Notes under the pieces: generated by a model
Database searches by the model: none
Told to the model about the DNA's origin: nothing
The model's input: only the letters and a program-made list of their open reading frames with translations
Position numbers and translations under genes: made by a program
From: a virus
Length of the DNA stretch: 39,130 nucleotides
Reading direction: 5' to 3' (one strand)
IMG/VR virus record: IMGVR_UViG_3300010400_000035
Coordinates: 1-39,130 of that record
Shown here: one piece after another, positions 1 to 39,130 of the stretch
Layout of the letters: the number at the start of each line of letters is the position of its first letter
Position numbering within the stretch: position 1 is the first letter of the stretch

Positions 1-168
1 ACGCGGTCCACCGTCGAGGCAGAGCACAGCGACAGCACGCGGGCAACCGTCGAGTCCGAGCACAGCGACAGCACGCGGGCAACCGTCGAGTCCGAGCACA
101 GCGACAGCACGCGGGCAACCGTCGAGTCCGAGCACAGCGACAGCACGCGGTCCACCGTCGAGGCAGAG
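1..168. repeat. 36-bp direct tandem repeat, about 4.7 units
   Basis: Units begin at 1, 37, 73, 109 and 145. The three central units are identical. The first and last carry the same differences (tcc for gca, gca for tcc) in their first 24 bases. There are no spacers, so this is not a CRISPR array. The period is a multiple of three and keeps the minus-strand frame open, so unit gain or loss would change protein length without a frameshift. Confidence 0.95.
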
Positions 169-287
169 CCAGGAGAGTTGATGTAGGCGGTCAGTTCCTC
201 ATCAGACATACCTTCAATTTTTGCAGAAAAAATTTTAACAGCTTCATCCAGACTTTTCCGGTAATCAGCAAACGTTTCAGTTTTCAT
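1..287 (-). CDS. 12-residue tandem-repeat protein, partial (3' end off the window)
   Basis: An open frame starts at ATG 287 and is still open at base 1 (95 codons seen). An AAAGGA motif lies about 11 bases before the start. The first 40 or so residues (MKTETFADYRKSLDEAVKIF...) form a charged, helical-looking N-terminus ending in a DEELTAYIN segment. After that comes a perfect repeat with core STVARVLSLCSD (12 residues), three identical copies flanked by variant copies in which the DS before STV is AS and AR is replaced by DR. One cysteine falls in each repeat at the same place. The gene is the last visible member of the leftward early operon. I do not recognise the family. The opposite strand is also open here (a repeat T-R-A-T-V-E-S-E-H-S-D-S), but it has no visible start and stops at 186. 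Confidence 0.6.
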   Translation of the reverse strand, partial: MKTETFADYRKSLDEAVKIFSAKIEGMSDEELTAYINSPGSASTVDRVLSLCSDSTVARVLSLCSDSTVARVLSLCSDSTVARVLSLCSASTVDR

Positions 288-324: not shown

Positions 325-816
325 TCATGCGGCCATCTTGAACGGGAATTCCCAAAGCGACTGACGGCCACGCGCCGCGATGGGTGTTTCAAAGACTTGT
401 GTGACTTCCAGATGCCAGGCATAACGCATCGGGCTAAAGTCGCCGAGGTTCCATTCTAAAACGATCCGCTTCTTGACTGTCGGGGGCAGCTCCTTCGAAA
501 TTTTTGGATTGGCGATCGTCGGATAGACTTCAATCAGGTTGGCGATGCAAAGCACCGAGCCGAGTGGCAGGGTTTCCAGAGCGGTGATGCCCTCCGATTC
601 GAACAGGCCTGCAATGTGCCTTTGAACGCCGATCGAAAGCCCTTCAAATGATGGGCGGCGCTGTGCTGCATGAATCGCGATCGGGCCTCGATAACTTGTC
701 GCCCAACTACGGGTCTCGAAATGTTTGTGGCCAAGTGCCACCAACGAAGCCCACGGCTGCCATAGAGACAGCGCGGGAATCGTTCCGGGTTTCGGGTTCC
801 ATCCTTTAGTCGTCAT
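325..816 (-). CDS. ASCH-domain protein
   Basis: 163 aa. The segment ALSLWQPWASLVALGHKHFE followed by TRSW..SYRGPIAIHAA is the typical N-terminal part of an ASCH domain, a PUA-like beta-barrel fold thought to bind RNA or modified bases. I chose ATG 816 because it overlaps the TGA of the upstream DUF1643 gene as ATGA, the coupling used throughout this operon; ATG 831 is an in-frame alternative adding MENGS. ASCH proteins are often carried by phages, but their phage role is not established. Its pairing with DUF1643 suggests a nucleic-acid related accessory function (inference). Confidence 0.85.
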   Translation of the reverse strand: MTTKGWNPKPGTIPALSLWQPWASLVALGHKHFETRSWATSYRGPIAIHAAQRRPSFEGLSIGVQRHIAGLFESEGITALETLPLGSVLCIANLIEVYPTIANPKISKELPPTVKKRIVLEWNLGDFSPMRYAWHLEVTQVFETPIAARGRQSLWEFPFKMAA

Positions 817-1313
817 GCTGCCATTTTCCATTCAGTAGGTTGCAGTATTTTTTTCAAGTAAAGTGGGTGTGCAGGATGCCCTTCTTTCGTGATTGAAAGG
901 CAGTAGATTTTTCTGTTTTTGCAGATGTTGCGGACAACTTCACCACGAGATTGATATTCACCGTGAATTCCCCATGCCGCAACTACCAGAGAACATTCTT
1001 GCATCGAGGTTAAGATGTACTGGTCGTTCAACGGACCGATCGGATCTGGGTGTGTGTACAAAACCGAAGGCATGCGGGATCTAAGGCCAAAAAGGTTCAC
1101 CACCTGAATTCCATTGTAGCCCCAGAGTTTCGCGTAATTGATACAGCGTGTTATCGTGGCGTCATCAAATTCCGCATCCGCAGTGGATGGATTCAGCATG
1201 ATGAAACACACTAAATGAGGCGCTTCGCCATTGAAAAAATCGAACCATCGCCGCGTCAGCAGATAGCGATATTCCCCTTCGATAGTGGCGGTTTTTAATG
1301 TCTCGTCTTTCAC
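813..1313 (-). CDS. DUF1643-family protein
   Basis: 166 aa. The stretch CFIMLNPSTADAEFDDATIT, then RCINYAKLWGYNGIQVVNLF, is the hallmark of the DUF1643 family (LNPS motif, N/D pair, then VNLF). The family has no proven activity; it is common in phages and plasmids. The start is taken as GTG 1313, which has AAGGA six bases upstream. A longer frame to 1352 would begin inside a strong hairpin and adds arginine-rich, non-conserved residues. The 3' end overlaps the ASCH gene by four bases, so the two are probably translated together. Confidence 0.85.
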   Translation of the reverse strand: MKDETLKTATIEGEYRYLLTRRWFDFFNGEAPHLVCFIMLNPSTADAEFDDATITRCINYAKLWGYNGIQVVNLFGLRSRMPSVLYTHPDPIGPLNDQYILTSMQECSLVVAAWGIHGEYQSRGEVVRNICKNRKIYCLSITKEGHPAHPLYLKKILQPTEWKMAA

Positions 1314-1330
1314 TGTTATTCCTTGTAAGC

Positions 1331-1356
1331 GGCGGTGCGCCCGGAGACGCACCGCC
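1331..1356 (-). promoter_or_regulatory. Intra-operon hairpin (perfect 9-bp stem)
   Basis: GGCGGTGCG (1331-1339) pairs perfectly with CGCACCGCC (1348-1356) across an 8-base loop, in the only sizeable gap (52 bases) of this part of the operon. No T-tract follows on the minus strand, so it is not a standard intrinsic terminator. It may slow transcription, protect the upstream mRNA end or mark a processing point. Confidence 0.5.
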
Positions 1357-3013: not shown

Positions 3014-4033
3014 TCAGAACTCAAACCGCACTGAACGCTTTGTGCCTTTGCCGATCCATTCGGTGTAGGGTTTTTCATTAAGCGAGCCGAGGTAGCTGCT
3101 GAAATCCCACACTCCGCTTTTGTCGTCGATGTCTGAGCCGAACCTGCCCAACAGGTTCGTGATGCCGCCGCCGATGTCCGTGACTGTGAAGCCGAGGTGA
3201 TCGATTTCGATGATGCGCTCGCAGGTCTTGCCGAACAGTCCGAAGAACCACTTGCGGCCGTACTTGAGATGAATGAGAGTCGGTGTTGCTTCGATTACCT
3301 CGAACTGCCCGCCGGTCACGCGCCAGTAGCTGTCATTCCACGGACCGCGTGGCACGTTCAGATAAGCGGCCTCTGCGTTCGGGCGTTTCTGCTTGTTCGC
3401 ATAGCCGATATAAGGCGGGCAGACTGCGAGCCATCCCCGACCTTTCTTGTAGAACGCGAAGTGACCAAAGGAGGGATTGACATGGAAGTCGTAGGGAAAT
3501 TCGTTGACCGCCGCTTCATGCTCCACCAGGAGAAAGGATCCGTTGCGCCGCACGACCGTATGCGAATCCCAGGAGAACTCGCCGTCGTCATGTTCAACCG
3601 TCGGGAAACCCGTTTCCCGCGTCTCTGCCAGCGGGATTTTGCCGTCAGGTCCGGAGAGCTGCAAGTAGTTCACCTCCATCGCAGAGAGCGCGGACTCGTA
3701 TTGAATCGGCAGCTTGCCGGTGATACGGTGGTAGAAGTCGAAGGCGGCTTTCACATAGAGGAAATAGGATGGCCCCTCGATGTAGAGGCCGTTGCGGCAC
3801 AGCAACCGGAAATCCTGCCAGGCCTTGTCCAGTTCGCCGTTCAGGGTGAGCGCCGCCTGAATCACACGCTGACGGATGGTGAGGTTCGTCGGGCCGACCA
3901 GCTCCTGCGCTTCGCACAGCAGCCGGAATTGATTCAGCGACCAGGCATCACTGAGCGTCGGTTTATCCTTGGCCATGACATTGTCCTGCGCTGTCGCCCA
4001 GGCGGTTGTATTGGTGAAAGTCCAGGTCATCAT
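3014..4033 (-). CDS. Hypothetical 339-aa protein, possibly heparinase II/III-like
   Basis: Not confidently recognised. Residues about 15-145 are helical with Trp/Tyr (LDKAWQDFRLLCRNGLYIEG, then FYHRITGKLP). The second half is beta-rich, with HEAAVNEFPYDFHVNPSFGH and then FAFYKKGRGWLAV...YIGY. A helical N-half followed by a beta-sandwich with an H-x-N-P-x-x-G-H-F-x-x-Y pattern recalls heparinase II/III-like polysaccharide lyases, but this is a by-eye resemblance. It lies directly upstream of endolysin, so it would be made in the same transcript as the lysis genes. ATG 4033 overlaps the upstream stop as ATGA, with AAAGGAG ten bases before it; ATG 4030 is the alternative. Confidence 0.6.
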   Translation of the reverse strand: MMTWTFTNTTAWATAQDNVMAKDKPTLSDAWSLNQFRLLCEAQELVGPTNLTIRQRVIQAALTLNGELDKAWQDFRLLCRNGLYIEGPSYFLYVKAAFDFYHRITGKLPIQYESALSAMEVNYLQLSGPDGKIPLAETRETGFPTVEHDDGEFSWDSHTVVRRNGSFLLVEHEAAVNEFPYDFHVNPSFGHFAFYKKGRGWLAVCPPYIGYANKQKRPNAEAAYLNVPRGPWNDSYWRVTGGQFEVIEATPTLIHLKYGRKWFFGLFGKTCERIIEIDHLGFTVTDIGGGITNLLGRFGSDIDDKSGVWDFSSYLGSLNEKPYTEWIGKGTKRSVRFEF

Positions 4034-10222: not shown

Positions 10223-10258
10223 TTATGCATAGGTGAATATCTATTCACCTATGCATAA
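10223..10258. promoter_or_regulatory. Perfect palindromic operator (17-bp arms, 2-bp centre)
   Basis: Left arm TTATGCATAGGTGAATA and right arm TATTCACCTATGCATAA are exact inverted copies separated by TC. The core AGGTGAATA-TC-TATTCACCT has the size of a lambda-type repressor operator, and each outer end contains TATGCATA, itself a palindrome. It lies between the divergent repressor and early operon, so it is the likely binding site of the repressor. In Mu the operator region also acts as the transposition enhancer; whether this one does is unknown. Confidence 0.85.
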
Positions 10259-10264
10259 AGTCAA
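10236..10264 (-). promoter_or_regulatory. Candidate early promoter (leftward)
   Basis: On the minus strand TTGACT (10264-10259, five of six to consensus -35) is followed by exactly 17 bases and GATATT (10241-10236, four of six to -10). The spacer is one complete arm of the palindromic operator, so bound repressor would block RNA polymerase. Transcription would start near 10229 and reach ATG 10177 after a leader of about 50 bases. Confidence 0.6.
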
Positions 10265-10271
10265 GGGGAAA

Positions 10272-10886
10272 ATGGAAGATTTTAAAGACCGATTAAAAAA
10301 AGCTCGGGACGCCCTTTCCCTAAGCCAAAATGCTGCTGCTAAAAAAGGTGGCGTGAGTCAGAGTCTTTGGAATCGATACGAGAGCGGGAAGGTTATTGTA
10401 CCACCTTATACCTTCATCGAAGCCCTTGCCAGAATGGGGATTAACGCGAATTGGCTATTGACTGGCATCGGCGATATTTTATTCAAAAATTATGAGACAA
10501 GAAGAATTCCCCTGATTTCTTATGCAGGTGCTGGGACGTTGGATGTTGATGAGCCTTTGACCTACGAAGACCAGCACGACCTAACACTTCCGGATTCTCT
10601 GACTCTTCCAAAGGGGGTTGTTTATGCGATTCAGGTCAAAGGGGAATCAATGCTCCCCCATTTCCATGATAGGGATGTCGTCGTTGTATGTGAAGAGGAA
10701 AAGCCTAAAAACGGGCGGGATTACGTTTTTGTAGCCGATGGCAAGACCTGGCTGAAGACCTACCATCGATTGGGGGACCGTATAGAATTACGCTCTCACA
10801 ATAATATCAAGCCAATTTTGGTTCAAAAACGGCTCCGGGCCTTCAAAATTCTTTATTGCCTGCACACTTATAGGCCGCAGGAGTAA
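10272..10886 (+). CDS. LexA-like phage repressor (XRE HTH + S24 peptidase)
   Basis: 204 aa from ATG 10272, preceded by AAGGGGAAA. Residues 4-65 are an XRE-type helix-turn-helix (SQNAAAKKGGVSQSLWNRYE). The C-terminal half is an S24/LexA-like self-cleaving domain: cleavage site A85-G86 in SYAGAG, catalytic S126 in VKGESM and K162 in TWLKTYH, with LexA-like Ser-to-Lys spacing. It should hold the prophage silent and lose activity on RecA-assisted autocleavage after DNA damage. The frame extends upstream to GTG 10233, but that start lies inside the operator. Mu itself uses a different repressor type. Confidence 0.92.
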   Translation: MEDFKDRLKKARDALSLSQNAAAKKGGVSQSLWNRYESGKVIVPPYTFIEALARMGINANWLLTGIGDILFKNYETRRIPLISYAGAGTLDVDEPLTYEDQHDLTLPDSLTLPKGVVYAIQVKGESMLPHFHDRDVVVVCEEEKPKNGRDYVFVADGKTWLKTYHRLGDRIELRSHNNIKPILVQKRLRAFKILYCLHTYRPQE

Positions 10887-10974: not shown

Positions 10975-11151
10975 ATGAGTCCAAGACACGCCCCCGAGAT
11001 TCCCCGCGACCGGCTTTCCCAGCGTTGGCCCAGAAATGTCCTGGAAGACATGGCATTAGCCGCCGAGGCCAAGGATCAAACGACCACTGACTGGCTCATC
11101 GATGCGGCGCAGGAAAAGATGAAGCGCCAGAACAAGGAGAAGAAGTCATGA
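10975..11151 (+). CDS. Small 58-aa protein, possibly ribbon-helix-helix
   Basis: Starts MSPRHAPEIPRDRLSQRWPR and continues as a charged helix ending KRQNKEKKS. The strand-like start, then NVLEDMALAAEAKD and TTTDWLIDAAQEKMKRQ, could be a ribbon-helix-helix fold, but this is only a shape argument. No strong ribosome site is seen (TATCGGGC before ATG 10975). Its stop overlaps the next start as ATGA, which supports it as a real gene. Confidence 0.5.
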   Translation: MSPRHAPEIPRDRLSQRWPRNVLEDMALAAEAKDQTTTDWLIDAAQEKMKRQNKEKKS

Positions 11152-11693
11152 TCATCCGATTGCTGTTCCTGGCTGCGGTGTTGTCTGCATCGGCAGGCAC
11201 GCCGCACCACATGTACTTTGCTCGAACAACCAGCGGACCGCCCATCACTTATTTTTCGAACACGGAAACGTCGGCGATTCTCATTGACTCAGGTGATTTT
11301 AAAGGTGGCATTGGTGGGCCGCTCACAATCACTTCGAAGGAATGCGAAGACCCCAACCCATTCCTTGATTCTCTTGCACCGCATAAACGCTATGCAACGA
11401 TTCAGCTATTACCCCTCAGCAAAATCGCGAGCTGCACCACAGACAGTCGAATTGCAATATTGACCACAGGCGATCAATTACGAGCCGTGAACATCAATCT
11501 GACGGCGAATGGTTCCGGGGGCTACACGCGCGATACGCTATATGCCTATGCGGGCTACAACCAGGCGGTGCCGATTCTCTCGCACTCGCCGGTCACGCAC
11601 CGCATACAGTTGCTCATGCCTGGGAAGGACTTTGATCTGCTGGGCCGCCGCTTCTTCAGGCAGCCATTAAAAACCGTTGCATCACCCTTTTAA
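11148..11693 (+). CDS. Secreted protein of unknown function (possible lysogenic-conversion gene)
   Basis: 181 aa. The N-terminus MIIRLLFLAAVLSASAG is a typical Sec signal peptide, with probable cleavage around residues 15-17. The mature part is beta-rich with two cysteines (KECEDPNP and IASCTTDS), which could form a disulfide outside the cytoplasm. Translation is coupled to the 58-aa gene. It shares orientation with the repressor and its 3' end overlaps the opposing gpG gene by 38 bases. Location suggests expression in the lysogen; no family is recognised. Confidence 0.65.
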   Translation: MIIRLLFLAAVLSASAGTPHHMYFARTTSGPPITYFSNTETSAILIDSGDFKGGIGGPLTITSKECEDPNPFLDSLAPHKRYATIQLLPLSKIASCTTDSRIAILTTGDQLRAVNINLTANGSGGYTRDTLYAYAGYNQAVPILSHSPVTHRIQLLMPGKDFDLLGRRFFRQPLKTVASPF

Positions 11694-12264
11694 TCTCAAG
11701 GATGTCGTCATCTTGAAGAACCAGAAACGGCCGCGCCGGAATCTTCGAACCGGGATGCTTCACGCTCTTGACAGGACCGGGACCACCCGGCCATGCAAGC
11801 GCCTTCTTGTGTCTGGCGCGGATCACATGCGCCTTGGTCTTTCCTCCGTGATGTTGAATCCCGGCATAGACGACATTGGTTCCCCAGATCACATGATCGG
11901 CCGAGGCCTTCCAGGTGATCGAGTTGCGCAGGCGGCCGCTCACCTGAAGGATGCCGAGCTTGCGCAGCTTCTCGGGCTTGGTCTTCCAGCCTCGCGACGT
12001 GACCTCGCCCTTTTTGTTTTTGTGAACAGCCCAGCGCGTGTTGCGGGCCATCAGCGTCTGCGCCTTCAGGGGCTTCCACCTGTTGAGTCCGCCGCGCCAC
12101 GATCCGATTTCACCGTATCGGCCGCCGACTTCGAAGTTCTTTATGATTGAGGAATATCCGATTGCTCCGATCTCGTTCAGCGGCGATGTCATGTTGCCCA
12201 TCTTCCGCTTCAGGCTGTCGAAGAGCTGGGAGACTTCGTGGTCGTCAACTTTGACAGTCAGCAT
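11656..12264 (-). CDS. G: Virion morphogenesis / tail completion protein (Mu gpG-like)
   Basis: 202 aa. MLTVKVDDHEVSQLFDSLKR at the start, then a basic middle with LQVSGRLRNSITWKASADHV and YAGIQHHGGKT, and PARPFLVLQDDDILEIKRVM at the end, are the signatures of the phage virion morphogenesis family (Phage_tail_S, Mu gpG and P2 gpS). It takes part in head-tail completion. It is the last gene of the leftward head operon, separated from gpF by a small plus-strand gene. Confidence 0.9.
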   Translation of the reverse strand: MLTVKVDDHEVSQLFDSLKRKMGNMTSPLNEIGAIGYSSIIKNFEVGGRYGEIGSWRGGLNRWKPLKAQTLMARNTRWAVHKNKKGEVTSRGWKTKPEKLRKLGILQVSGRLRNSITWKASADHVIWGTNVVYAGIQHHGGKTKAHVIRARHKKALAWPGGPGPVKSVKHPGSKIPARPFLVLQDDDILEIKRVMQRFLMAA

Positions 12265-12279
12265 GAGGGAGAGTATTTA

Positions 12280-12525
12280 ATGGACATGGAAACCGTATTC
12301 GACCACGGCATTACAGCCGATGAAATCAAAAGCCTCGGCATCCAGCCCGCGCAACAAGCCGAGTATGTGTCACGGATGAAAGATGCGGACACGGTGAACG
12401 CCGACATCGCGCAGTTGTTCGCTTCGCGCGGCGATGACAGAACCGCCGATAAATATTTCAACCGCATCAAGAACCCGACGAACAGGTTCAACGCGCAGCT
12501 TGTGGACGAGGGCGTCACGAGCTGA
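12280..12525 (+). CDS. Small plus-strand gene inserted between gpF and gpG
   Basis: 81 aa, acidic and helical (ITADEIKSLGIQPAQQAEYV, then FASRGDDRTADKYFNRIKNP). Not recognised. GGGAGAG lies six bases before ATG 12280; ATG 12286 is a second in-frame start. It points against the head operon, begins 15 bases after the gpG start and ends 11 bases inside the 3' end of gpF. TTGACA (12251-12256) then 17 bases then TATTTA is promoter-like, but would place transcription start at about the ATG. This single inverted gene looks like a moron; its neighbour has a toxin-like tail (see findings). Confidence 0.6.
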   Translation: MDMETVFDHGITADEIKSLGIQPAQQAEYVSRMKDADTVNADIAQLFASRGDDRTADKYFNRIKNPTNRFNAQLVDEGVTS

Positions 12526-14110
12526 CCTCTTCGAAAAGGGTTTTCAAATCCGTTTCGAATTGTTGTGTATTGATCTGCCTCATCATCTCCAACGCTTCAC
12601 GGATTTTTCCGGAATTCTTTCCGGATAGTTTCGCCAGCGCATCCGTCGTCAGCGCGGGCATCTTCCAGAAGTCCCCTTCATAGGCAACAGGTGTCAAGGT
12701 TTCCAGTGCGGCGGCCTCTTCAATACCGAGCAGTTTGAGAAGCGCCCTGAAATTCGTGATGAGGTTTTCGTACCCGTAACCACGGTCAAGAATGGCCGCC
12801 TGCTGTGTTGCCGTTCCACCGAGCTTCGTCATGAACTCCGGATAGGTATGGCGCGAGATGAACTGGTTCAGCGTTTCCATGACGCGGCGTTCAATGCAAT
12901 AGCATGGCAGAGCCGCCCAGCCCTGCATTCTGTTGTGATTGATCTCATGCCAGAACGATTCGATGGAATACTCTTCATTGAAAGTCAGTTCAGCGCCTTC
13001 ACCCTTGATGCTGATTTTTTTCAAGGCGTCCTTCAGGTTTGCCAGCGGCTGCAACTGTCCGCCGTTTGCAAACCGCTGCCGCATGGAAGAGACGCTTATT
13101 CTTCCATGACTGTCGGTGCTCATGAGCACGCCTTTGGTGCGCATCGAATCGACTTTCTTGAAACCGCGCAGGAAGAGTTCCGGATTTTCTTCGTGAAGAG
13201 TTTTGACCATCTCCGAAATATGACCGATGTTTTTAGCGGGCATGCGTTGTGCCAGTCCCGGCAGAACCGGCTTCTCCATGGGCGGCACCTCCGGCGGTGT
13301 CTCGGCTTCGTAGGCCTTGACCAGCTTCGGATCATATTTCTTCAGGTCGGGTGCGAAGCTTTTCACACCAGGGTTGTAGTCGAAGCCGGGGTCGGGCCAG
13401 AACTCGTCTCCATTGTGCAGCTTGATTCCCTGCACCTGGCGAACCTCGCCGGTGGTGCGTGAGATGAGCGCCTGCCTTTTGATGATCTTCGAGGGCGGCA
13501 TCACGGCCAGTCCCAGGCGTTCGACTTCCGATTGCGACACCGGCACGAGCTTGCAGCGGCAGTTGTAGCCGTTCTGCGGTCCGATGATCTTCAGCACCGG
13601 ATCATCGACGCGGAAGATTTTCCCGTTCAGCTTGCGATGCGCCGGTCGCGTGGCTCCGTCGAGAATGGCGACATAGCGCACGAAGGGGTGTGACTTCTTG
13701 ACGGACTGAATCTGCTGCCAGGTGCCCGCATCGTAAGCCTGCTGGACGTTGGTCTGGAAAATGGTTTGCAGCCGGTGGGGCGATCCGAGCTGCACCGTCT
13801 TCAGGGGATCGTTTGGATCCGGAACGCGGCCCCACCAGCCTTTCGACTTTAACGTGGGGATCAAATCGTTCTTGAAGGTTTGCAGCGTGGTGCCGTCGGC
13901 GAGGGCCTTGTGCACGGCATCATGGAAGTCCTGAAGGATGTCGAGCTTCGCGACCTTCGCTACGGTGAATTGATTGATGTGCGCGGTGCGCCACACGTCG
14001 GCGGCGTCCCATGAGATCGTGTAGCCCTTCTTTTTGAAGAACTCGATGGCGGCCTGCGGCGCGAGCTTGAAAGCATCGAGCAGAAGACCCGAATCGACGG
14101 GAGGGGGCAT
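12515..14110 (-). CDS. F: Minor head protein gpF (MuF) with C-terminal HExxH region
   Basis: 531 aa. Residues about 60-195 are the phage head morphogenesis (MuF/SPP1 gp7) domain, with FQTNVQQAYDAGTWQQIQ, ILDGATRPAHRKLNG and GYNCRC (C184, C186) as in the family. Residues about 200-280 link to a second part of about 250 residues. That part contains FWHEINHNR, an HExxH motif at 388-392, followed by E407/E412 in IERRVMETLN, as in zinc metallopeptidases. MuF proteins sit at the portal and can carry toxin-like C-terminal domains in other temperate phages. Its start overlaps the portal stop by one base. Confidence 0.9.
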   Translation of the reverse strand: MPPPVDSGLLLDAFKLAPQAAIEFFKKKGYTISWDAADVWRTAHINQFTVAKVAKLDILQDFHDAVHKALADGTTLQTFKNDLIPTLKSKGWWGRVPDPNDPLKTVQLGSPHRLQTIFQTNVQQAYDAGTWQQIQSVKKSHPFVRYVAILDGATRPAHRKLNGKIFRVDDPVLKIIGPQNGYNCRCKLVPVSQSEVERLGLAVMPPSKIIKRQALISRTTGEVRQVQGIKLHNGDEFWPDPGFDYNPGVKSFAPDLKKYDPKLVKAYEAETPPEVPPMEKPVLPGLAQRMPAKNIGHISEMVKTLHEENPELFLRGFKKVDSMRTKGVLMSTDSHGRISVSSMRQRFANGGQLQPLANLKDALKKISIKGEGAELTFNEEYSIESFWHEINHNRMQGWAALPCYCIERRVMETLNQFISRHTYPEFMTKLGGTATQQAAILDRGYGYENLITNFRALLKLLGIEEAAALETLTPVAYEGDFWKMPALTTDALAKLSGKNSGKIREALEMMRQINTQQFETDLKTLFEEVSS

Positions 14111-15672
14111 CAGGCCATCCGGCCGACGGACTCGGCGATGAAGAGCATCTTCTGTCCCACGAGCTGCATCTTCTCCGTGTCCATCTGCGGGAATAGATCC
14201 GCCAGACCCGTGAGGATTTCATCGAAGCTCTCCGCCTTGCGTGCCAGCTCCAGCACCGGCGCGAGCATCGCGTCGGCAAACTCCTGCATCTCTTCGGGCT
14301 TCAAATCTTCCAGCATCTTTTGCAAAGCCTGCTGGTTCTTGATCACATGCGAGGCATGCGTTGAGTCGTGAGGCGCGGCGAACAGCGGACCGGGAGGGTT
14401 GCCCGCCTGCGTCGGATCCGGCGGCTGCACCGGTTCGCGCAGTTCGAAGTCCTCTTCAGACACGTTGTAGGTGCGTGCGATGTAGGGCTTCTTCCACACC
14501 ACGCCCATCTTCTCGGTCATGCTGCCATCGCGCTCGGCACGCTTGTCGATATCTTCCTTCTCGAAGAAGACAAACTCGGGACACTCGACGCCGGGACCGA
14601 AGTTGATTTCGACCATGTCGGCGATGAGGGTGTCCATTTCCTCCTTGACCAGGTTCTTGTTGGCCCAGACGATCTCTTCGCGCGTGATGGCGGCCATGTC
14701 TTCGCCGCCGAGCTTACCCGGTGTTGACTGCGATGCGCCCTGATGTCCCAGAATGCTGGTGGTGATGGCATCGTTGGCCCAGTCGATGAGTTGGCTGTAA
14801 AGGTCGCCGGATGATTTACCGCCGCCGCCCTGCGCGTTGAGCAGCTCGACCTTGCTGTTATCCCACAGCACGGCGACGCCGTCCTGCACCAGGGCTTCGA
14901 GCTGTTTCAGGTATTCATCGACCTTGCCCTTGTCGGTTCCCACCGGCAGCTTGGCAATGGCATGCGGCATTCCCCATTTTTCCAGGAAGGTGGCCCAGAA
15001 CTTGATGCCGCCCTTTTTGAAGATGACCGGCCAGAAGCAGCGGGAGAGAATGGCGAACCCGTAAGGGTTCAAATAATCGTCTTCATGCTTGGCGACCTGG
15101 AACTGATAGCGGTGCGCTTCATCATCGACGATGACTCCTTCAGGAATGTCCTTCTGCCGAAAGCGCAGATTGCCGTCGATGTCATAGTGAAACCACTCGG
15201 GTGGCTTGCCCACCAGATCCTTCAGCCAGGTCTTGCTGCCGTCGTGTTGCCACACGCGCTCCATGGGCTGCATGCCGAACAGCGAGGCGTTCAACACCGA
15301 ACCGATGATGCGGTGGATGCCGTTGGTCTTCTTCGCGCGTTTCTTCCGCAACAACTTGAAGTTCTGTTTGACGTGATCGAAAACGGCGGTGTCCGATTCC
15401 CCCTGCTCAATCTGCCAGTCCTGACTTTTGATTCCCGCCTTCAGGCTTTCAACACCGGAACCCACCCGGTCATCGGTGAGCAGCTCGCGGTAGATGGCCA
15501 TGGACGAGCGGCCCATCTTCTTCAACACCAGATCGGGATTGGGAAGGTGGACTGAAGAAGAGAAAACCCACTGCGCCATTTTGCGGGTGGCGATTTCGAC
15601 CTGAACAGGGTTTTGACCGGGCAATTCTGCTGCGAATTGTTTTCGTGGCTTCTTTGGGGCTGGTTTATTCAT
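14110..15672 (-). CDS. Portal protein (DUF935, Mu gp29-like)
   Basis: 520 aa. The DUF935 pattern is present: IYRELLTDDRVGSGVESLKA, GSVLNASLFGMQPMERVWQH, then NPYGFAILSRCFWPVIFKKG and FLEKWGMPHAIAK. It forms the dodecameric ring through which DNA enters the head and to which the terminase and neck bind. GAAAGGTGACCC precedes ATG 15672. The C-terminal ~100 residues are helical and charged. Confidence 0.95.
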   Translation of the reverse strand: MNKPAPKKPRKQFAAELPGQNPVQVEIATRKMAQWVFSSSVHLPNPDLVLKKMGRSSMAIYRELLTDDRVGSGVESLKAGIKSQDWQIEQGESDTAVFDHVKQNFKLLRKKRAKKTNGIHRIIGSVLNASLFGMQPMERVWQHDGSKTWLKDLVGKPPEWFHYDIDGNLRFRQKDIPEGVIVDDEAHRYQFQVAKHEDDYLNPYGFAILSRCFWPVIFKKGGIKFWATFLEKWGMPHAIAKLPVGTDKGKVDEYLKQLEALVQDGVAVLWDNSKVELLNAQGGGGKSSGDLYSQLIDWANDAITTSILGHQGASQSTPGKLGGEDMAAITREEIVWANKNLVKEEMDTLIADMVEINFGPGVECPEFVFFEKEDIDKRAERDGSMTEKMGVVWKKPYIARTYNVSEEDFELREPVQPPDPTQAGNPPGPLFAAPHDSTHASHVIKNQQALQKMLEDLKPEEMQEFADAMLAPVLELARKAESFDEILTGLADLFPQMDTEKMQLVGQKMLFIAESVGRMA

Positions 15673-15675
15673 GGG

Positions 15676-15822
15676 TCACCTTTCGATTCTCGCCGGGGCT
15701 GTTGCCGGATTGCTCGGCGTTTTAAACACTTTAAACACTCGCAGCACCTTCGATGCGTTGACGGGGGTCGAGCGGCCTTTAGCGGCCTTTTCGGTAACTG
15801 GCGAAATTCCTTCAAAATGCAC
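15676..15822 (-). CDS. Candidate tiny basic protein between terminase and portal
   Basis: 48 aa from GTG 15822, preceded by GAGGGGGGATATC. It overlaps the terminase stop by 11 bases and ends three bases before the portal ATG, filling the only gap in this operon. The product is basic (VLRVFKVFKTPSNPATAPAR), with no known family. The tight packing and ribosome site are the support. An in-frame ATG at 15852 would overlap terminase further. Confidence 0.45.
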   Translation of the reverse strand: MHFEGISPVTEKAAKGRSTPVNASKVLRVFKVFKTPSNPATAPARIER

Positions 15823-17254
15823 GATATCCCCCCTCACGGGACGAGGTCTCATGAAAGGCCTGCCGCATCCGCTTTTCGTTGACCCGTTGACCCCCGGTTT
15901 TCCGGCTGGCCATGAAGGGGGGAGAACCGTCTGCCGCTCTTGCGGCATGAACGGCCAAAGCTCCCGCCCAGAATCGGTCGGCGTGGCCGAGGCGTTCGGG
16001 GGCCAAAGTTTTAAAGCTGATGTTTCCTTTGGCGGTAACCACCTTACGCATCGAATGCAAATCTTCGCGCAGGTCGAACTCCGGAGGGGTGAGAATGGTC
16101 TTGTCTTCAAACTCCCGTTTAAAGCCATGTGCAAGGGTCTGTTCCATCGGTGCGGTGAGCTTGAGGCCTTCAACCTTGTAGGTGCCATAGGCAATCGTGG
16201 CTTCTTCAGCGAGTTGCTCGCCCATGCCGGTGGCGTCGAGTCGTGCGCGTTGCATGCCGCGCAGGTTGAGCAGGGAATACAACGCTTCGCGCTGAACGGG
16301 AAAGGGTTGCTTCTCCAGCACGATCACCTTGCGGGTGATGAGCATCGGCGGGACTTCCTCCAGCACATAGAACACCGTCAAATGCTTGTGACGGCCGATG
16401 TCCATGCCGAGGTACAGGTTGCCCGTGCACTGTTTCAAATCATCGACGATGATGCCGTCGCGTTCGCAGGTATAGAGCAGATCGTAGGGCATGAAGGCGG
16501 CGGCTTCGTCGATGGGAATGCAGAGGAACTCCTGCTGCCAGGTCTCATCATCGAGCGCGTCGGTTTTCAGCTCTTCGAGGAAGTCGTTGATTTCTTTCTT
16601 GCCCGCCTTCTTCCCGAGAATCTTGTCGAGCATTCCCTGCTTCATCGCATCGTTGATCGTGGTGGTATGCAATGACCAACCCTTGCGGCGTCCGTGCTTC
16701 ACGTCCTCGATGAGACGGTTGAAAAGGGATCCGGGTCCGTTGTGCGTCGAAAGCACGAACAGACTTCCGCCCCAGACCTTGAGCGCGTTGATGGCCTTCC
16801 ACATCGCGAGGGGGTTGTCGTGATGCGCGGCCTCATCCCAGTAACCATCGCCGCCCTTCGAGCGGAACTGCCGGTGATTCGAGGTGAGCGCATGAATCTC
16901 GTATTTGTTGGCAAGCACCAGGGCGCGTGAGGTGATATCCTGTTCTGAATCGTACAGACACTGCTCGACGACTTCGGCTTTCACCTGAACCTGCCGCGCC
17001 CAGAATGCGCAATAGTCGATATACTCGGCGGCGGCCGTGTCATCAGCCGATGAGAACCAGCTTTTGGGTGCCATCGGTGTGGCCATCATGGCACCGCGTC
17101 GCACGGCACGATAGGCGATGGACCAGGTCGCACCGATGCGGCGGGACTTCTCCCACAGAATCACGCGGGACGGATCGAGAATGGCTTTCTGCTGGAACGG
17201 CAGAAAGGTGCTCTCGGGCGTGAAGGACTTTTTACGACTACCGACGATGTGCAT
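15812..17254 (-). CDS. Terminase large subunit (Mu gp28-like)
   Basis: 480 aa from ATG 17254. Walker A-like LWEKSRRIGATWS (about 33-45), Walker B GDGYWDEAAHHD (D140/E141) and motif III FVLSTHN (about 166-172) form the packaging ATPase. The nuclease part has YLGMDIGRHKHLTVFYVLEE, RLDATGMGEQL and LGHADRFWAGALA. It pumps DNA into the head and cuts it, headful style in Mu-like phages. A TTG start at 17284 is possible but lies inside the upstream gene; even from 17254 the overlap is 17 bases. Confidence 0.93.
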   Translation of the reverse strand: MHIVGSRKKSFTPESTFLPFQQKAILDPSRVILWEKSRRIGATWSIAYRAVRRGAMMATPMAPKSWFSSADDTAAAEYIDYCAFWARQVQVKAEVVEQCLYDSEQDITSRALVLANKYEIHALTSNHRQFRSKGGDGYWDEAAHHDNPLAMWKAINALKVWGGSLFVLSTHNGPGSLFNRLIEDVKHGRRKGWSLHTTTINDAMKQGMLDKILGKKAGKKEINDFLEELKTDALDDETWQQEFLCIPIDEAAAFMPYDLLYTCERDGIIVDDLKQCTGNLYLGMDIGRHKHLTVFYVLEEVPPMLITRKVIVLEKQPFPVQREALYSLLNLRGMQRARLDATGMGEQLAEEATIAYGTYKVEGLKLTAPMEQTLAHGFKREFEDKTILTPPEFDLREDLHSMRKVVTAKGNISFKTLAPERLGHADRFWAGALAVHAARAADGSPPFMASRKTGGQRVNEKRMRQAFHETSSREGGYRAF

Positions 17255-17675
17255 CTGCGTACAATCCGAACGTCTCACGTTCAATCTTGAGGAAGTTTTC
17301 TTTCGTCAGAGGCGGCTTCTTCTTTGCGGGCGGTTCTTCAGGCAGCTTGTCCACCTGGTCGATTCCCTCCTGCCGGAGTTTTGCGAGCTGCTTCTGCAAT
17401 CCGGTGACGGCATTGAATCGGCTCGTCGAGGGTTTGCGTTTCGCCTTGCGGTCCGCTTCGATCTCTTTCGCGAGACCGTTGATCAAGGATTGAAGGCTTT
17501 CGGCGCTGGAGCTGCGTGCGGCGATGAACGCCTTGCGCTTTTTGCTCCAGTCGTCCTTCTGGTCCCAATACCGGACCGTACGCGGAGCGACCTTGAGCCG
17601 GTCCGCTATTTCGTCATGGGTGAGCTGGCTCTCGACATAGAGGGTTTCCGCCAGCTCGCGTTCGCGGCGCTTCAT
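17238..17675 (-). CDS. Small terminase-like HTH protein (DUF1804-like)
   Basis: 145 aa. ERELAETLYVESQLTHDEIA, then DRLKVAPRTVRYWDQKDDWS, is a helix-turn-helix of the type seen in small terminase subunits and DUF1804 proteins next to gp28 in Mu-like phages. The rest is a charged coiled coil with a Lys/Pro-rich stretch (EEPPAKKKPPLTK). It probably recognises the phage packaging start and recruits the large subunit. Confidence 0.8.
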   Translation of the reverse strand: MKRRERELAETLYVESQLTHDEIADRLKVAPRTVRYWDQKDDWSKKRKAFIAARSSSAESLQSLINGLAKEIEADRKAKRKPSTSRFNAVTGLQKQLAKLRQEGIDQVDKLPEEPPAKKKPPLTKENFLKIERETFGLYADAHRR

Positions 17676-17953
17676 CCCCCGCCATGTCCACGTGAGGCTT
17701 TGAGTTCACGGAGGGCGTCCGTGTTGTTGTTGATGGTCGTGCGCAGGGATTCGTGCAAATCGAAACAACGCCTGCTGTCGTCGCGCTTGCTCTCCAGTTC
17801 ATCCAGCAGAATCTGGCGGATTTCTTCATTCGATTCGCGCTGTGCCGCGAGTTGATCCTTCACCCATTTCGCGAAAAAGATGAAGCCAATGAACATCATG
17901 GCCGCCGTGATGGACTGCTCCATCAGTCTTTGAAGAATTGATTCGATGCTCAT
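17672..17953 (-). CDS. Membrane-anchored coiled-coil protein (DUF2730-like)
   Basis: 93 aa. One TM segment near residues 14-33 (ITAAMMFIGFIFFAKWV) and then a long coiled coil (ESNEEIRQILLDELESKRDD). Proteins of this build (DUF2730) precede the terminase genes in many Mu-like phages; role unknown, a spanin-like or packaging accessory role has been suggested by position only. First gene of the leftward late operon. Confidence 0.7.
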   Translation of the reverse strand: MSIESILQRLMEQSITAAMMFIGFIFFAKWVKDQLAAQRESNEEIRQILLDELESKRDDSRRCFDLHESLRTTINNNTDALRELKASRGHGGG

Positions 17954-17963
17954 GAAACCCCCG

Positions 17964-17983
17964 GAAAACGCGAAAGCGTTTTC
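17964..17983. promoter_or_regulatory. Perfect 8-bp hairpin in late leader
   Basis: GAAAACGC (17964-17971), loop GAAA, GCGTTTTC (17976-17983). It lies in the 5' leader of the leftward late mRNA, 10 bases upstream of ATG 17953, close to the GGGGG ribosome site, so it could affect translation or mRNA stability. As DNA it is also a dyad that a regulator might bind. Confidence 0.5.
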
Positions 17984-18010
17984 TGAAAGGGTAAAGAGAT
18001 GCAGGGGTGT

Positions 18011-18041
18011 TTTTCTAGTCCGGCACGGATTAGAAAATGCG
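18011..18041. promoter_or_regulatory. Candidate bidirectional late-promoter element
   Basis: TTTTCTAGTCCG-GCA-CGGATTAGAAAA is a near-perfect dyad (11 of 12 paired positions) in the divergent gap between the terminase and protease operons. Its plus-strand part TAGTCCGGCACGGATTAG plus AAAATGCG matches the element at 22546-22571 in 22 of 26 positions. GAAAAT (plus, 18033-18038) and GAAAAA (minus, 18015-18010) sit where -10 boxes would be expected. No good -35 is seen, which fits an activator-dependent promoter. Confidence 0.6.
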
Positions 18042-18120
18042 GTAGTGCGCGGCCTACCTTACTCCACGAAGACTTGAGAAAGCAAATGTACAGCGACTCG
18101 AATCAAAAGGCAACCGCAAC

Positions 18121-19242
18121 GTGAAGAAGCAGAAACTCAAAAAGGCGGCGGACCATCCCGAAGTCATGGAGTATGTGAAAGCAGGATGGATTCCTGTTTT
18201 GCAGACTGGCAAGATTACGGACTCCGGCGGCACTGAGCATGACTTCACCATCGAAAAGCTGAACGCCATTGCGGATGCATACGATCCCGAGTTCCGCAAA
18301 GCACCGCTTGTCATCGGACATCCCAAGACCGACGGCCCCGCATACGGCTGGACCGCCGCGCTGAAGTGCGTCGGCGAATTCCTGCTGGCGCTGCCCGAGA
18401 AGGTTCACGAAGCATTCCGCACGGCCGTCAACGAAGGCCGCTACAACACGCGCTCGGTCGCCTTGAAGGGCAACGAGCTGCGGCACATTGGATTCCTGGG
18501 CGCGGCGCTGCCCGCCTGTCCCGGTCTCGGCGATGTTTCTCTTGCCGAAATGGAAGGCGACTGCGTCATCGAGTTCGGCATGCCCATCGACCGCAACGAT
18601 CCCGATTGGGATCTCGCCTGGAAAATCGTGGACATCGGCTCGGCGCTGAGATCCTTTCGCGAATACCTGATTGAGAAGGATGGCATCGAGCAGGCCGACA
18701 AGCTCTTGCCCAACTACCTCATCGACAGACTGACACAGGAGCCGGAAGCGGCACCGCACAATCCCGAATACACACAAGGAGCACCCATGGATCCCAAAGA
18801 CAAGAAAATCCAGGAACTGTCGGCCGAGGTCACCGAACTGGAAACCCAGCTCACCGGCCGCGACAACGCCGCCTGGGAAAAAACCCGCGACGACTTCGTC
18901 TCCGGATTGCAGAAGCAGGGCATCATCCTTTCGGCCAAGGTCGCCGAAGCCAAGGGCATGCTCGACCGCGCACGCGATGCGGGCAAGGGCGAGTTCTCCG
19001 AAGAGAAGAACCCGGCCTTGAAGCAGACCATGGACTTCATGCGCTCGCAGAAGCCCCAGCTCTCTCCCAAGGAAATCGCCACGCTGAACGCGGCGGAACA
19101 TTCCGGCGAAGGCGAAGACGAAGCGGTTTCGCTCGCACGCATCGCAGGCGAGTTCATCAATTCCGAAGCAGCCGCCGGTCGCACGGTCACCGCCGACTTC
19201 GCCGTGGCGCATGCCAGGAAGCAACTGAACACCGCGCGGTAA
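18121..19242 (+). CDS. I: Capsid maturation protease with C-terminal scaffold (Mu gpI-like)
   Basis: 373 aa from GTG 18121. Residues 1-160 match the Mu-like prohead protease: VLQTGKITDSGGTEHDFTIE, then APLVIGHPKTDGPAYGWTAA and NTRSVALKGNELRHIGFLG. The last ~150 residues are a charged coiled coil (DKKIQELSAEVTELETQLTG) as in scaffolds. In Mu, gpI cleaves the scaffold and itself during head maturation. First gene of the rightward late operon. Confidence 0.92.
   Translation: MKKQKLKKAADHPEVMEYVKAGWIPVLQTGKITDSGGTEHDFTIEKLNAIADAYDPEFRKAPLVIGHPKTDGPAYGWTAALKCVGEFLLALPEKVHEAFRTAVNEGRYNTRSVALKGNELRHIGFLGAALPACPGLGDVSLAEMEGDCVIEFGMPIDRNDPDWDLAWKIVDIGSALRSFREYLIEKDGIEQADKLLPNYLIDRLTQEPEAAPHNPEYTQGAPMDPKDKKIQELSAEVTELETQLTGRDNAAWEKTRDDFVSGLQKQGIILSAKVAEAKGMLDRARDAGKGEFSEEKNPALKQTMDFMRSQKPQLSPKEIATLNAAEHSGEGEDEAVSLARIAGEFINSEAAAGRTVTADFAVAHARKQLNTAR
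18787..19242 (+). CDS. Z: Nested scaffold protein (Mu gpZ-like)
   Basis: Internal in-frame ATG 18787 has AAGGAG five bases upstream (in the protease sequence EYTQGAP). The product, 151 aa starting MDPKDKKIQELSAEV, is the scaffold domain alone. Mu has the same arrangement, where gene Z lies inside the 3' half of gene I, and lambda C/Nu3 is a parallel case. It would fill the prohead and be removed by the protease. Confidence 0.85.
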   Translation: MDPKDKKIQELSAEVTELETQLTGRDNAAWEKTRDDFVSGLQKQGIILSAKVAEAKGMLDRARDAGKGEFSEEKNPALKQTMDFMRSQKPQLSPKEIATLNAAEHSGEGEDEAVSLARIAGEFINSEAAAGRTVTADFAVAHARKQLNTAR

Positions 19243-19300: not shown

Positions 19301-20098
19301 ATGAATCCGATTCTCACCAAAACCTTCACCGCTGACGCAACCGTCAAGGCCTATCGCATTTTGATGGTCGGCTCGGACGAAGGCTCCTGCAAGCACGCCA
19401 CGTCCGCCAACGTCGCGTTTCTCGGTGGGTCCAATCAGGTGGACAAAAAAACCGAGGGCGATGCCATTGACGTGATCCGCATTGGCCTCGCCGAAATCGA
19501 ATACGGCGCAGCCGTCTCTGCGGGTGATCCGCTGACCTCCGACTCCGTCGGTCGCGCGGTTCCCGCCGTGTTCGATGTCAACGACAGCGTCTATGTCATC
19601 GGCTATGCCGAAGTGGACGGCGTTGCAGGCGACATCCGCGAGGTGCTCATCGACAAGGGCATCGTGCCCGACAGCGCGATTGCCGACGATTCGGATCTGC
19701 TCACCGCCAATGTCACCATCACCTCGGCGCAGCTCCTGGCCTTGAATGCCACACCCAAGTCGCTCATCGCGGCTCCGGGCGCGAACAAGGCCATCATCGT
19801 CGAGCGCGTTATCGCCACCAAAGCCGCAGGCACCGCCTATGCGGGCATCGCGGCAGGCGAGGATGTCGCGCTGCGTTACACCGACGGTTCTGGCACGGTG
19901 CAGGCCACCATCGAAGCCACGGGGTTTCTGGATCAGGCCACCGCGCAGGTGCGCACGGCGGTTCCGACCACTACGGCGAACCTTACGCCCACGGCCAATG
20001 CCGCGCTCGTCGCTCACATGACCAGCGGCGAAATCATCACGGGCGACAGCGACCTCAAGTTGCGCATCCTGTACCGCATCATCGACACGGTGCTCTAA
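19301..20098 (+). CDS. Capsid decoration (cement) protein, DUF2190-like, with extension
   Basis: 265 aa. Residues about 1-110 (AYRILMVGSDEGSCKHATSA, then GLAEIEYGAAVSAGDPLTSD) resemble DUF2190 head-decoration proteins, which are usually about 110 aa. The extra C-terminal half is beta-rich (APGANKAIIVERVIATKAAG, then DVALRYTDGSGTVQATIE) and may be a second surface domain. It stands between scaffold and major capsid, as expected for a cement protein. Confidence 0.75.
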   Translation: MNPILTKTFTADATVKAYRILMVGSDEGSCKHATSANVAFLGGSNQVDKKTEGDAIDVIRIGLAEIEYGAAVSAGDPLTSDSVGRAVPAVFDVNDSVYVIGYAEVDGVAGDIREVLIDKGIVPDSAIADDSDLLTANVTITSAQLLALNATPKSLIAAPGANKAIIVERVIATKAAGTAYAGIAAGEDVALRYTDGSGTVQATIEATGFLDQATAQVRTAVPTTTANLTPTANAALVAHMTSGEIITGDSDLKLRILYRIIDTVL

Positions 20099-20160: not shown

Positions 20161-21111
20161 ATGGAAACCAGCGAATTCGAAGGCGGGAACGAGTACCCGC
20201 AAAACCCTGAGCATCTGGCGATTGCCATGACGCACGTCAACCGGCTCTTGATTGCCGATGACGTGTTGCGTCGTCTGCCGCCTTCCAATTCGCGGAAGTT
20301 CGACTTCTGGGAATACGAAGAGTCGGATCAGTTCACCATTCCTGACGGAATGGAAGTCGGAAAGTTCAGCTCGGTGCCGGAAATCCGGCCCAAGGCGACG
20401 AAGACCGATTCCAGCGTCAAGAACTACGGCATTGTCGAGCCGGTGTCGCAGGAAGACATTGACGACCATTCCGCAGGAGTGGATCCGCTGGCCCGCGCCA
20501 CGATGCGCTGCTCCAACCTGGTCAAGCTGGCCCGCGAGGTTCGCGTGGCAAATCTGGTGTTCAATGCCGCGACCTATGCGAGCACGAACAAGGACACGCT
20601 CTCGGGCACCTCCCAGTTCAGCCACACAAGCTCCGATCCCATCGTTCAGCTCAAGGAATACCTGGACGGCATGAAGATGCGTCCCACGAAGATGATCATC
20701 GGCCGTCGTCCGTGGACCAAGATGTCCACGCACGCCAAGGTGGTCAAGGCTTCGAACGGCAATGCCGGTGATGCCGGTGTCGCCAATCGTCGCGTTGTCG
20801 CGGACCTTCTGGAGATTCAGGAGATCATCGTCGGCGAAGCGTTTGTCAATGGTGCCGTCAAAGGCCAGACCATGACCAACGAACGCGCCTGGGGCAATTA
20901 CATCGCCCTGTTGTTCGATGACCCCACGGCGGACAACGTGGGCGGCCTGACCTTCGGCTTCACCTACCAGTACAAGGGTCCGGTGGTGAAGACCTTCGGC
21001 AAGCCCGAAGTCGGTCTGCATGGAGCGCAGAAGCAGCTCGTGGGCGAATCCGTCCGCGAAGTCATCTCCGCGCCCTCCTGCGGCTTCCTCATCTCGTCGG
21101 TCATCGCGTAA
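20161..21111 (+). CDS. Major capsid protein
   Basis: 316 aa. GGAGGAACC precedes ATG 20161. The sequence has the features of an HK97-fold coat protein used by Mu-like phages: N-terminal arm, SSVKNYGIVEPVSQEDIDDH (E-loop/P-domain region), then RVANLVFNAATYAS and PTKMIIGRRPWTKMSTHAKV, and a conserved FGFTYQYKGPVVKTFGKPEV near the end. Position after scaffold and decoration proteins supports it. Confidence 0.88.
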   Translation: METSEFEGGNEYPQNPEHLAIAMTHVNRLLIADDVLRRLPPSNSRKFDFWEYEESDQFTIPDGMEVGKFSSVPEIRPKATKTDSSVKNYGIVEPVSQEDIDDHSAGVDPLARATMRCSNLVKLAREVRVANLVFNAATYASTNKDTLSGTSQFSHTSSDPIVQLKEYLDGMKMRPTKMIIGRRPWTKMSTHAKVVKASNGNAGDAGVANRRVVADLLEIQEIIVGEAFVNGAVKGQTMTNERAWGNYIALLFDDPTADNVGGLTFGFTYQYKGPVVKTFGKPEVGLHGAQKQLVGESVREVISAPSCGFLISSVIA

Positions 21112-22544: not shown

Positions 22545-22576
22545 TTAGTCCGTCACGGATTGGATAATTCGTGACG
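22545..22576 (+). promoter_or_regulatory. Candidate late promoter of the tail operon
   Basis: In a non-coding gap. TAGTCCGTCACGGATTGG (22546-22563) leads into GATAAT (22563-22568), five of six to a -10 box, in the same register as GAAAAT at 18033. Overlapping it is an inverted repeat: CGTCACGGATT (22551-22561) and AATTCGTGACG (22566-22576), ten of eleven positions. There is no recognisable -35. Transcription would start near 22575, about 45 bases before ATG 22621. Confidence 0.6.
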
Positions 22577-22620
22577 CAAGTGGCAGATTAGGAAACAAGA
22601 AATCAAGGGTGGGAATCACG

Positions 22621-38825: not shown

Positions 38826-38845
38826 CACGTTTAAACTCGTGTTTT
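38826..38845 (+). terminator. Weak terminator-like hairpin after the fibre gene
   Basis: CACG (38826-38829) pairs with CGTG (38838-38841) around TTTAAACT, followed by TTTT. The stem is short, and nearby A/T pairs extend it by two. It may end the late transcript just before the phage end, or simply be part of the end region. Confidence 0.35.
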
Positions 38846-39130
38846 CAATTTCTCAAATTGCGCGTCGTTTTTTCTCAAATTGCGCGTTCGGTTATACGCC
38901 CGTTCCACGGTTTCCTTGATGAACAGATCGACCCGTGCGTAGGTCGCGAAATAATTCTCGATGAACCGCTTCGCCTCGGCGTAGGGAATCTTGAGCTGCC
39001 CTGCGAGACGGTGCGCGCCCATGCCGTACAGCACGCCGAAATTAACGACCTTGGCCGCGCGCCGCATTTCGGAAGTGACGTCGTCCTCCGCGACGCCGTA
39101 GAGCGCGGCGGCGGTGCGGGCATGGATGTC
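38831..39130 (-). pseudogene. polA: Host DNA polymerase I gene fragment interrupted by the phage
   Basis: The minus-strand frame entering from the right edge reads DIHARTAAALYGV, then EMRRAAKVVNFGVLYGMGAH, the motif B (O-helix) region of family A polymerases: RRxxKxxNFGxxYG. Host similarity goes on to DLFIKETVERA (to about 38898). The frame then enters phage end sequence (YNRTRNLRK...) and stops at 38831. The C-terminal ~130 residues with motif C are missing on this side, so the interrupted gene cannot make active polymerase. The gene starts outside the window. Confidence 0.9.
38849..38887. repeat. Right-end tandem transposase-binding sites (R1/R2-like)
   Basis: TTTCTCAAATTGCGCGT occurs exactly twice, at 38849-38865 and 38871-38887, 22 bp apart, which is two helical turns. 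In Mu, two adjacent MuA sites (R1, R2) of about 22 bp lie at the right end. The outer copy is within about 15 bp of the point where polA homology begins, as expected for the end-most site. Partner sites at the left end are outside the window. Confidence 0.8.

Follow-up and report, generated by a model that had tools for sequence, protein, structure and literature searches.

A symmetric dyad between divergent late operons of a Mu-like phage as a putative shared activator site

A single activator site between two divergent late operons is already known from phage P2. In the P2 record (NC_001895) one activator site is annotated, at 3057-3087 with its centre at 3072, and the transcription starts lie 56 and 55 nt from that centre, at 3016 (minus strand) and 3127 (plus strand). 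The site has the consensus TGT-N12-ACA, and its activator is Ogr (PMC3931495). Here we describe a comparable locus in a Mu-like phage, the IMG/VR record IMGVR_UViG_3300010400_000035, whose entire analysed stretch of 39,130 bases we refer to as the window. Its central element is a 27-bp dyad located in the gap between a leftward operon that includes the terminase and portal genes and a rightward operon that begins with the protease gene.

The P2 promoters PP/PO resemble this locus in that a single site lies midway between divergent late promoters (the window's starts being predicted), with terminase and portal genes in the left operon and scaffold and capsid genes in the right. The Mu-like version nevertheless differs. 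The P2 site is centred near -55 and is read by the zinc-finger activator Ogr/Delta, whereas the window dyad would lie near -43 and has another sequence. TGT-N12-ACA is not found at the dyad, where the triplet 12 nt beyond TGT (18008-18010) is GCA, and no Ogr/Delta protein (PF04606) was found in the window or in six relatives. The two phages also belong to different families.

At promoter Pm of phage Mu, an inverted repeat centred at -43.5 takes the place of a -35 box and is bound by the protein Mor, and a -10 is present (PMC4390567). Similarly, the window has a dyad in the -35 place, centred near -43 of the predicted starts, with a recognisable -10, and Mor-like genes are common among the window's relatives. 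However, Pm is a one-way promoter with short 5-bp repeats that yields a middle transcript, whereas the window combines a longer dyad with two promoters and late genes; moreover, Mu has Mor, whereas no Mor-like gene was detected in the window. A second Mu promoter, PI, precedes the protease gene I. Along with Plys, PP and Pmom, it belongs to the late promoters, whose genes are fired by the phage activator C bound 5' of them (PMC4461284). In contrast to the divergent operons and shared dyad of the window, the Mu late genes are collinear and have separate one-way promoters, with no shared bidirectional site. Pseudo-symmetric DNA also drives divergent RNAs at the bacterial bidirectional promoters described by Warman, Grainger and colleagues (PMC12825309), whereas the window has predicted -10s separated by ~70 bp, with an activator-like dyad as the shared element. 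We found no paper on a bidirectional late promoter in Mu-like phages in the open literature, a search in which most subscription papers were not covered.

The dyad and its two predicted promoters

Our analysis indicates that the dyad is most likely the shared site of one dimeric activator, and that its centre lies near -43 of both divergent late promoters, each of them predicted to have a -10 but no -35 box. A sequence-only reading of the window had described a 27-bp dyad in this gap, and we indeed located it at 18011-18037, where the arms (18011-18022 and 18026-18037) pair at 11 of 12 positions (92% complementary) around a 3-nt centre. The palindrome by itself is modestly unusual: by shuffling, a score of at least 9 within 180 nt has a probability of ~2.5% (1.25 such loci among 50), and on score alone it could be taken for a chance palindrome without function. 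What takes the dyad beyond chance is that a second copy of its core, at 22546-22561 (TAGTCCGtCACGGATT), agrees with it at 15 of 15 specified bases and that -10-like hexamers stand at an equal offset on both sides. Given also that the arrangement recurs in relatives, we give a chance origin next to no weight.

The two predicted -10 hexamers, TACCTT for the rightward promoter and TACCCT (minus-strand reading) for the leftward one, both lie 31 nt out from the dyad centre, matching the spacing rule obtained from the relatives. With the window's base make-up, symmetric hexamers have a chance probability of ~1e-5, which rises when the gap's own, more AT-rich composition is used. No other dyad in the 39-kb window is accompanied by two symmetric -10 hexamers. 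The predicted starts, placed seven bases beyond the last base of each -10, fall at ~18067 (+) and ~17981 (-). The dyad centre, 18024, is thus about 43 nt from both, and the dyad sits midway between two opposite-facing predicted promoters. These positions replace the earlier proposal of GAAAA-type -10 boxes on both sides with starts near 18045 and 18003: the GAAAA tracts are A-tracts of the dyad's own arms, where the relatives place no -10s, and the starts predicted from the supported -10s are ~21 nt away. The arm tracts were rejected as -10 candidates, the offset-7 excess in the weighted score falling inside the dyad arms. A smaller inverted repeat, GAAAACGC-GAAA-GCGTTTTC (17964-17983), is found next to the predicted leftward start.

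A sigma70 promoter with both -35 and -10 boxes was not found in 16-20 kb of the window, and no TTGACA-like -35 stands 16-18 nt from the -10s. The mean best match (2.4/6) equals random expectation, in line with the claim of the sequence-only reading that -35 boxes are missing. Without a -35 box at either promoter, both probably need help to fire, which argues against a repressor that uses the dyad as its operator and keeps both late promoters silent in lysogeny, with activation coming from elsewhere. A symmetric site between divergent promoters would fit repression too, and the window has an S24/helix-turn-helix (HTH) repressor and an Arc-like protein but no detectable activator. However, with its centre at -42/-43 of both predicted starts, the dyad would occupy the position that the activator Mor takes at Pm (PMC4390567), and the S24 repressor gene adjoins an inverted repeat of its own, a perfect 17-bp one at 10223-10258. 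We thus consider a repressor operator unlikely, and infer that the dyad is bound by a protein whose effect is activation, not repression.

The same dyad could in principle act as an RNA hairpin, for example a bidirectional terminator, rather than as a DNA site. The plus-strand RNA has a more stable predicted fold than its shuffled versions (-19.2 kcal/mol, z -3.7), and some gap palindromes of the relatives are terminator-like (L122, and L014 near the protease start). Nevertheless, as the operons diverge, there is no known transcript end at the dyad, and no U-run follows the stem beyond the arm itself. Many of the relatives' dyads have a one-base centre, which is unfit for a hairpin loop, and a hairpin leaves the symmetric -10 boxes at fixed spacing unexplained, making this explanation very unlikely. 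The dyad was also rejected as an intrinsic terminator: it is absent from the list of terminator-like elements and sits between divergent operons, not at the end of a unit.

Only two places in the window match GTCCGnnnCGGA, namely the dyad and the second copy of its core, which precedes the tail genes. The outer left arm of this copy lacks symmetry, and its -10 candidate, CAGATT at 22584-22589, is weak; GATAAT at 22563-22568 looks better, but it falls inside the second dyad and would need another geometry. The second copy also bears on whether the dyad marks the genome middle for another use, such as a gyrase or transposition-synapsis site. Mu has a strong gyrase site between G and I, and the window dyad is near the middle of a ~39-kb transposing phage, adjoining an I-like protease gene. 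Such a role accounts for neither the -10 hexamers nor the copy at 22546, nor for the near absence of the composite of dyad and both -10s from collinear Mu-like phages, and we regard it as highly improbable.

Recurrence of the arrangement among relatives

Alignments of portal, terminase and protease served as profiles for the searches that gathered the loci of relatives. When viral contigs were searched with the window protease alone, no relatives were recovered, and a near-exact search for the window dyad in viral contigs returned two chance matches only, both within coding sequence. The protease and terminase genes are divergent in 62 loci and collinear in 121; 53 of the divergent loci, counting the window, are non-identical. 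In the terminase tree the window sits among 45 divergent loci (Shimodaira-Hasegawa-like approximate likelihood ratio test, SH-aLRT, 98), its exact neighbours being unsure since the tree was built by a quick method and the window branch is long. Two further divergent loci, L010 and L016, fall elsewhere in this tree, outside the main divergent clade. The closest portal (45%) belongs to L004, which does not include the gap. In the named phages examined (B3, Lsp-JY19, RR1-B, StopSmel and Mwe-Yong1), terminase, portal and protease are all on one strand. Overall, the divergent layout is common to a clade and not confined to the window phage. The sequence-only reading, which presented the shared site as a compact solution of this phage, was therefore well supported as to the site but too narrow as to the phage, given the clade-wide layout and the precedent of P2.

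Of 50 divergent loci, 17 have a palindrome scoring at least 9 within 180 nt 5' of the protease, compared with 1.25 expected from dinucleotide shuffles. Many relatives (L010, L147, L185 and others) have in common a core near CTGAACnGTTCAG, around which the flanking arms vary in sequence and keep their palindromy. When the loci were aligned on the dyad centre, -10-like hexamers stood equally far out on either side of the dyad. Dyads were then picked automatically, blind to the -10s (21 loci, 42 sides). TAnnnT was present at offset 30/31 from the dyad centre on 24 of the 42 sides, against a background of ~2% per position, and on both sides in 11 of the 21 loci, including the window. This enrichment corresponds to P ~ 7e-23 with sides treated as independent, a value that overstates independence because some counted loci are near relatives of each other. 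In 5000 permutations with the centres moved by 3-25 nt, the number of sides with the hexamer averaged 1.4 and never exceeded 6, and no locus had it on both sides. The peak at offset 30/31 persists with the window left out, and collinear loci have no -10 peak there.

Across 79 kb of divergent gaps the full composite was found at 12 places; the 745 kb of these loci that lie outside their gaps have a single one, 2.24 Mb of collinear loci have three, and the window has one. Loci bearing it are spread over several branches of the tree, among them L010 and L016. Conservation of the dyad in related phages had been proposed earlier as a check, and the outcome is mixed: its position, symmetry and -10 spacing are conserved, and its sequence is not. 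The claim that one activator site would serve both directions is well supported, because the anatomy is symmetric and recurs in relatives with the same split operons.

Several observations weigh against a shared activator site. The full composite is present in only 12 of ~51 divergent loci, most of which have no clear one; in some of these the protease start is called too far upstream, so that the gap is missed, or the dyads are in tandem. The core of the window dyad is unlike the CTGAACnGTTCAG of the relatives, and although TAnnnT occurs on both sides in the window, the match to TATAAT is only 3/6. A second copy of a locus's own dyad was found in few relatives and is lacking in most; when CTGAACnGTTCAG was sought across whole records, there was mostly one strong site in each. 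Finally, no Mor homologue (PF08765) was detected in the window by Pfam or by a kin-built Mor profile, with filters off.

Some relatives have variants of the dyad. Upstream of the L154 protease there are three tandem copies of AGTGAACGGGTTC, with a perfect TATAAT on the leftward side. L116 and L117 vary the symmetric layout: each has two tandem 25-bp dyads 5' of the protease, and on each side the TACAAT/CACAAT hexamers begin 24 nt from the centre of whichever dyad is nearer. The gaps of L130 and L131 contain the dyad GAAAGTCAACGATTGACTTTC, which has GTC/GAY half-site positions in common with the window dyad, and in L130 similar hexamers, not of the form TAnnnT, lie at offset 30 on both sides.

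Candidate activators and the surrounding genes

The activator of the relatives is probably of the Mor/C type. Of the 16 records from divergent relatives that reach at least 33 kb, 13 contain a Mor-like gene by Pfam and the kin-built profile combined; none is detectable in L116, L122 and L166 (33.7, 38.5 and 41.7 kb), and records shorter than 33 kb are little guide to the presence or absence of Mor. A distance of ~4.7-5.6 kb separates the Mor-like gene of L185, L164 and L155 from the start of the terminase gene, which is on the other strand. In B3, Mor is encoded at the far left end. The left edge of the window (1-180) consists of ~36-bp tandem repeats with an open reading on the minus strand, and the record may be cut there. 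In view of the B3 gene position and this possible cut, the absence of Mor from the window is no proof.

A candidate DNA-binding partner encoded in the window is a 58-aa, weakly Arc-like protein (PF03869, E=0.12; phrog_6506, E=0.039), for which a single-sequence model gives two helices at a moderate mean predicted local distance difference test score (pLDDT) of 74. It is conceivable, and in our view rather doubtful, that the symmetric bidirectional late switch is an old clade trait that outlived changes of its reader protein. Most relatives would then depend on Mor-like activators, which in many of them would act at dyads of the CTGAACnGTTCAG type, and the window phage would have replaced both dyad sequence and activator, possibly by the Arc-like protein, while keeping the spacing to both -10s.

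The window is a virus record with Mu-like genes, encoding MuA- and MuB-like transposition proteins, GemA, Gam and the S24 repressor. Its head genes form two operons on opposite strands, separated by a gap of 167 bp (Table 1). The leftward one runs from a 93-aa protein through a small-terminase-like protein, large terminase, portal and minor head to the neck genes, and the rightward one from protease through scaffold and major head protein to the tail genes. The inverted repeat adjoining the repressor gene has a 2-nt centre, lies at the 5' end of the repressor open reading frame (ORF) and faces a leftward 68-aa ORF; it is a probable early operator. At the right edge, a family A DNA polymerase fragment (38831-39067, minus strand; PF00476, E=2e-18) is probably host DNA past a prophage end. 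A DUF1643 protein (813-1352, minus strand; PF07799, E=3e-42) adjoins an ASCH-like gene at 325-831.

Table 1. Positions of the dyad, the predicted promoter elements and selected genes in the window
Feature	Position	Strand	Remark
S24/HTH repressor	10233-10886		
58-aa weakly Arc-like (ribbon-helix-helix) protein	10975..11151	+	candidate DNA-binding partner only
Neck / tail completion protein	11656..12264	-	last gene of leftward block
Minor head protein	12515..14110	-	phrog_220
Portal protein	14110..15672	-	Mu gp29-like
Terminase large subunit	15812..17284	-	
HTH protein, terminase-small-subunit-like	17238..17675	-	
93-aa protein	17672..17953	-	first gene of leftward late operon; weak phrog_1625 match
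TACCCT (minus-strand reading)	17988..17993	-	predicted -10 of leftward late promoter (centre -31 to -36)
27-bp dyad, TTTTCTAGTCCG-GCA-CGGATTAGAAAA (shorter written form TAGTCCGnCACGGATTA)	18011..18037	none	proposed activator site, centre 18024
TACCTT	18055..18060	+	predicted -10 of rightward late promoter (centre +31 to +36)
Head maturation protease	18121..19242	+	first gene of rightward late operon
Scaffolding protein	19301..20098	+	
Major head protein	20161..21111	+	
Second copy of dyad core, TAGTCCGTCACGGATTGGATAAT	22546..22568	+	in gap before tail genes

Implications for late gene expression

We propose that the activator would be made after early transcription and would occupy the dyad as a symmetric dimer, each half of which would bring RNA polymerase to its own side. 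The leftward terminase-portal-neck operon would thereby be switched on together with the rightward protease-capsid-tail operon. Two polymerases might occupy the locus simultaneously or take turns; polymerase competition is known at other bidirectional promoters (PMC12825309). The occurrence of a shared site in a Mu-like clade, with a spacing and a site unlike those of P2, looks like an independent invention.

The spacing rule, by which the dyad centre lies 30-31 nt from each -10, provides a simple finder of late promoters in phages available as sequence only and gives a directly testable prediction of the start sites. If true, the proposed arrangement would explain how phages with split, opposite late operons keep their output of capsid, portal and terminase in step.
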